Virus record (IMG/VR): IMGVR_UViG_3300037264_000502
Coordinates: 1-20,022 of that record
Strand: one strand, 5' to 3'
Length of the DNA: 20,022 bases
DNA from: a virus
The stretch's first letter is position 1. Each line of letters starts with the position of its first letter. Positions 93 through 386 of the stretch are shown here, one piece after another. Both the position numbers and the translations under genes were made by a program. The notes below the pieces were generated by a model. It was not told the DNA's origin and did not search any database. It saw only the letters and a program-made list of their open reading frames with translations.

Positions 93-386
93 GTCTCAGT
101 TGCTCACCGCGTCTCACTTCGTTTTTGACCCGGTGAGACACCATATTACTGAAAGATCCTATGTGTTTATCTTCTAGTGTCTCACTGTCTCACTAACTTA
201 CTAAATAGAGAGGTAAAGGGTAAATATGTAATAGGTGGGATAGTGTAATATAGAATACATCACAGGGGTGGACATAGAAAGGGGTGCTGAGACGCCTTGA
301 AATCGCCTTTTTTCAGCTCTAAGTGTGTGAGATCATTCAGTATCTAGTGTCTCAGTGGATGGTGAGCACAAGTGAGACGCTGAGAC
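93..386. repeat. cluster of nine GTCTCA/TGAGAC hexamers
   Basis: GTCTCA occurs at 93-98, 111-116, 179-184, 187-192 and 349-354. Its complement TGAGAC occurs at 134-139, 288-293, 373-378 and 381-386. Two pairs (179/187 and 373/381) are spaced exactly 8 bp. A 12-mer, TCTAGTGTCTCA, is repeated exactly at 173-184 and 343-354. Roughly one copy or fewer would be expected by chance in 300 bp. Clusters of short sites in both orientations next to a small terminase gene resemble cosB/pac-type recognition sites, but also origin iterons or operators. Confidence 0.8.

Follow-up and report, generated by a model that had tools for sequence, protein, structure and literature searches.

A GTCTCA array beside terS in an uncultivated contractile-tailed phage is best read as an iteron-type replication origin

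Which phage protein reads a dense cluster of GTCTCA hexamers that lies next to a terminase small subunit gene? The cluster stands at the left end of the 20,022-base record of an uncultivated bacterial virus, analysed here over its whole length (the window), and a first-pass annotation proposed that it is a packaging site recognised by TerS, with an origin carrying iterons or a repressor array as alternatives. The window encodes terS, terL, portal, protease, sheath and tape-measure genes and therefore belongs to a contractile-tailed phage; megablast of the window against named phages gave no match, and TerS found one match among them, weak and partial. To the right of the cluster lies terS (472..1056, plus strand, 194 aa; PHROG 6299, E 2e-11 for the ORF 403-1056). 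To its left, the contig end cuts a divergent XRE-type repressor gene on the minus strand, of which the first 17 codons (MSLRGFAERLRAARAAA) remain at 1..51; complete homologues of 98-107 aa stand in the same place in relatives. The primase-helicase gene of this phage is off the contig end. Directly after terS, a strong hairpin with a T-rich tail (1084-1113) is a likely terminator between terS and the downstream genes, and a gene for a DUF932 protein (PF06067, E 2e-19) sits at 1772-2833, between terS and terL.

The repeats themselves had been described exactly. Nine GTCTCA/TGAGAC sites in both orientations lie within 93-386 (plus strand at 93, 111, 179, 187 and 349; minus strand at 134, 288, 373 and 381) versus only seven in the other 19.6 kb, two pairs (179/187 and 373/381) are spaced by 8 bp, and the 12-mer TCTAGTGTCTCA is present twice, at 173-184 and 343-354. 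In 1000 dinucleotide-preserving shuffles of positions 60-475 the best hexamer reached a count of five, never nine, and chance is no explanation for the cluster. The gap before terS is indeed AT-richer, 40-bp windows reaching 0.72 AT in mid-array against a contig mean of 0.37.

Absent from the first-pass annotation were two variant sites, an arrangement of the sites in two sets about an AT-rich centre, and the start of the divergent XRE-type gene. As read from the sequence, the left set comprises iteron 1 (TGTCTCA, 92..98, plus strand), variant iteron 2 (TTGCTCA, 100..106, plus), which lies 8 bp after iteron 1 and recurs in the relative G001 and as TGGCTCA in the relative G002, iteron 3 (CGTCTCA, 110..116, plus) 10 bp after this variant, iteron 4 (TGTCTCA, 134..140, minus), and iterons 5 and 6 (both TGTCTCA, 178..184 and 186..192, plus), 8 bp apart. 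The right set opens with iteron 7 (CGTCTCA, 288..294, minus) and continues with a weak variant site (GATCTCA, 328..334, minus), iteron 8 (TGTCTCA, 348..354, plus), iteron 9 (CGTCTCA, 373..379, minus) and, 8 bp from it, iteron 10 (TGTCTCA, 381..387, minus). Between the sets lies a strandless centre of 95 bp (193..287; AT 0.62, purine 0.68), the proposed melting region. The hexamers run ++-++ on the left and -+-- on the right, so that direct pairs at 8-10 bp are combined with mixed orientations; inverted neighbours vary in spacing and form no fixed dyad, and the GTCTCA hexamer holds no GATC (Dam) site. GC skew in the window gives no origin mark at the array, and AT skew, which turns there, was rejected as origin evidence because gene direction turns at the same place.

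Searches with TerS and TerL identified the relatives G001 (45.8 kb), G002 and G004 (about 44.4 and 45.1 kb after trimming of end overlaps of 212 and 123 bp) and, later, L148/G020. All four keep the GTCTCA array between terS and the divergent XRE-type gene (98-107 aa), behind which a gene encodes a protein of about 800 aa, giving the order primase-helicase, XRE, array, terS. The left-half spacing (+8, +10, about 66, +8) is almost identical in the window, G001 and G002; in G004 it is similar, with differences at two steps. An AT-rich gap of 95-124 bp separates the two site sets in the window, G001, G002, G004 and L167 (on the same contig as L148). Because the array is conserved in these relatives, the sequences support its being a cis-acting element bound by a phage protein.

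If that protein were TerS, the array would be a packaging (pac or cos) site in which TerS binds both hexamer sets, as the P1 pacase does, and TerL cuts nearby. The start of terS lies 85 bp right of the array, and P1 pac likewise consists of repeated hexamers in two groups (PMC10028697); the TerS model places three N-terminal helices within 26-69, followed by long helices, and its N-terminal helical domain is predicted to be of the HTH kind. The overlapping ends of the G002 and G004 assemblies fit headful packaging but also most other schemes. The motif is retained beside terS in the four close relatives, but in more distant ones it is the replication genes that the array stays near. The array words of G008 and G010 (CTGGCC and TGACCA, related but different) lie 80-90 bp from the XRE gene, with terS about 3.0 and 1.8 kb away, respectively; G017 is similar, its array being at the XRE-primase operon and terS 1.8-3 kb off, a range that also holds for L184, L190 and L196. 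All seven XRE-side arrays tested beat all 1000 shuffles, and within 415 bp upstream of terS, G008, G010 and G011-G015 contain nothing above each genome's own range; therefore, the array does not need an adjacent terS. Five further TerS relatives, without the replication module, have no array directly upstream of terS, and in L187/G018, L182 and L192 arrays coexist with a TerS that belongs to a different family (Terminase_2, PHROG 51). L118/G009 has the gene order of the window and a TerS closer to that of the window (57%) than is the TerS of G004 (43%), yet in it the word AAGTGGG replaces GTCTCA. Although terS lies within about 3 kb in many cases, and adjacency alone is no exclusion of a packaging role, the packaging proposal has lost its comparative support in these sequences; TerS is probably not the array binder, and we regard a packaging site as unlikely. 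The G011 record carries a separate repeat, tandem GGACCCGG-type units at 42669-42868 (L142 19801-20000), in what looks like coding sequence at the end of the contig, 1.4 kb away from terS.

The divergent XRE repressor is another conceivable reader, for which the repeats would be operators in a switch between replication and late genes. Some XRE proteins, such as SinR, recognise short repeats, either direct or inverted, and in eight genomes the distance from the array to the start of the XRE gene is roughly 40-130 bp; however, direct pairs and mixed orientations without a fixed dyad speak against such operators, as do the presumed recognition-helix residues of XRE, which differ (HVA, TPQ, SSA) among phages with the same word. 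In L163, moreover, the array lies between terS and the primase gene, in a gap of 744 bp where no XRE gene and no further ORF of at least 60 aa was called. Near the G018 array, no XRE gene was detected; because a profile built from three XRE sequences failed to pick up known XRE genes, its negatives were not used alone. A better candidate operator is the conserved perfect dyad ATAAGG-N4-CCTTAT, one copy of which lies at the XRE start codon in G001. The window has four such perfect 16-bp palindromes at 1144, 1288, 1345 and 1453 (1144-1468), after the terS terminator and before the next genes, the last of them overlapping the -10 of a promoter-like site at 1443-1471, and dyads of this type also follow terS in G001, G002, G004 (one copy) and L148. 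This dyad is probably the operator of the XRE repressor, which would leave the GTCTCA array to another protein, and we give the repressor array, the other alternative of the first-pass annotation, only a slim chance. A C-terminal C-x-H...C-x2-C pattern is also conserved among the XRE proteins (L101 4001-4294 and homologues) and may form a small metal-binding tail.

The remaining neighbour is the primase-helicase, and a wider scan with an alignment of this protein yielded 47 loci. Raw hexamer counts over whole GC-rich genomes were too noisy, many coding windows having equal counts, and hence we relied on shuffles and on two-orientation, AT-rich criteria: the cluster score favours a k-mer present in both orientations, and clusters were kept at a score of at least 6 and an AT content at least 0.05 above that of the locus. 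With these thresholds, which were set after the first results were known, an AT-rich two-orientation cluster was present in 29 of the 47 loci and absent from 18, some of the latter being cut by contig ends. Clusters occur in 16 of the 24 loci with full flanks, and in 12 of these 16 the top cluster lies upstream of the primase gene at a distance of 2 kb or less (binomial p 2e-7 versus uniform placement); the exceptions are L176, L183, L187 and L203, and for L187 and L203 the distance between array and primase gene is 2-3 kb. The words found across loci include GTCTCA, CTGGCCA, CAGCACA, CAGTACA, GTCAACA, GTAACA, GGATCA, GTCACA, TACTCA, GCTGTAA and TACAGC. Two sets flank a gap AT-richer than the contig in most analysed arrays (L186 is among the exceptions), most clearly in L173, where seven sites in one orientation and seven in the other enclose an 84-bp centre of 0.83 AT. 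Neither the XRE gene (L163) nor the TerS family (L182, L192, L187) is constant beside the arrays. The primase-helicase is common to all loci by construction of the search, and the result is that an array accompanies it. We conclude that a two-set layout with a lineage-specific repeat word accompanies one viral primase-helicase family. Strong two-orientation arrays far from the primase gene were seen in L197 (212-534, AACCCTG, n=11) and L203 (11102-11402, CGTGCA, n=10), and may be origins placed elsewhere or other elements. The sharing of GTAACA between L198 and phages of another TerS family involves four sites only and was not relied on.

The N-terminal part of the protein of about 800 aa matches PHROG primases and helicase-primases (PHROG 9765, 256 and 3228), and its middle has a Walker A motif and a weak DUF5906 match. 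It has no detectable sequence relative among proteins of known structure; a primase scan of GTDB genomes gave no match, and neither of two tested primases had a match covering more than about a fifth of its length in any of 50,697 named phage genomes. An AlphaFold2 model of the last 190 residues of the G001 protein, built with four sequences, predicts a winged-helix-like C-terminal part (mean pLDDT 66.5 overall, with blocks of about 80-93 at residues 121 to 180). Its VIA-align rows are mostly winged-helix proteins, with weak similarity (best Z 6.2), and include PriRep1 (7pds) in a single weak row (Z 3.3). A winged-helix fold class for the C-terminal domain, and nothing more specific, is thus plausible from the model. 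When same-word and different-word groups were compared for this domain against the remainder of the protein, the difference pointed the expected way but was small.

We therefore return to the origin with iterons, the alternative of the first-pass annotation that fits best, the array lying near the primase gene in relatives. The GTCTCA array, conserved, AT-rich at its centre and associated with this primase family, is in our judgement likely to be the iteron-type replication origin of the window phage. We infer that copies of the primase-helicase would bind the TGTCTCA iterons of both sets through the C-terminal winged-helix domain, that helicase rings would assemble on both sides of the AT-rich centre, and that the centre (193-287) would melt and replication be primed there; the XRE repressor, encoded before the primase gene, probably sets the timing of initiator production. 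That the same iterons might serve as both origin and packaging start, with initiator and TerS reading one array and so coupling replication and packaging, seems to us very improbable.

Known systems offer partial parallels. The origins of PICIs are described as always having two iteron sets flanking an AT-rich region (PMC6092414), and SaPI Rep and Cch2 bind their iterons through a C-terminal domain (PMC7581432). The array resembles PICI/SaPI origins in its short iterons, in the two sets with an AT-rich region between them and in a word that differs between elements, and their initiators are helicases, some with a fused primase, where we propose a primase-helicase. In contrast, their origins lie immediately 3' of the initiator gene, whereas this array lies 5' of the XRE-primase operon, adjoins terS and belongs to full-size tailed phages. 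The reading that suits the array best is an iteron origin that works like those of PICIs and SaPIs; it is not filed as a member because its position relative to the initiator gene differs and homology between its proposed initiator and SaPI Rep or Pri-Rep is a candidate only. Both the P4 alpha and pRN1 proteins have a C-terminal winged-helix domain, and that of P4 alpha binds origin repeats (PMC4234260). Phage P4 is alike in that alpha is a primase-helicase with a C-terminal winged helix acting at an iteron origin (PMC4234260), but alpha has a bacterial-type Toprim primase, unlike the N-terminal part of the phage protein with its PHROG matches. In pRN1, a repressor gene is likewise followed by a primase-helicase gene (PrimPol-SF3, with a C-terminal winged helix) in one operon, but its origin is iteron-free and consists of a stem-loop located downstream of the gene; the following ORF in G001 overlaps the primase gene at its end. 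P1 pac, with seven TGATCA/G hexamers within 161 bp in two groups, HEX4 and HEX3 (PMC10028697), is similar in its grouped hexamers beside or in a packaging gene, whereas the present array does not track terS in relatives and has hexamers without GATC.

If the array is the origin, the PICI/SaPI-type layout would extend to full-size tailed phages, and its presence there would point to the source from which satellites acquired it. Replication origins in uncultivated phages could then also be found by a simple computational mark, an iteron word that changes next to a conserved primase-helicase gene.
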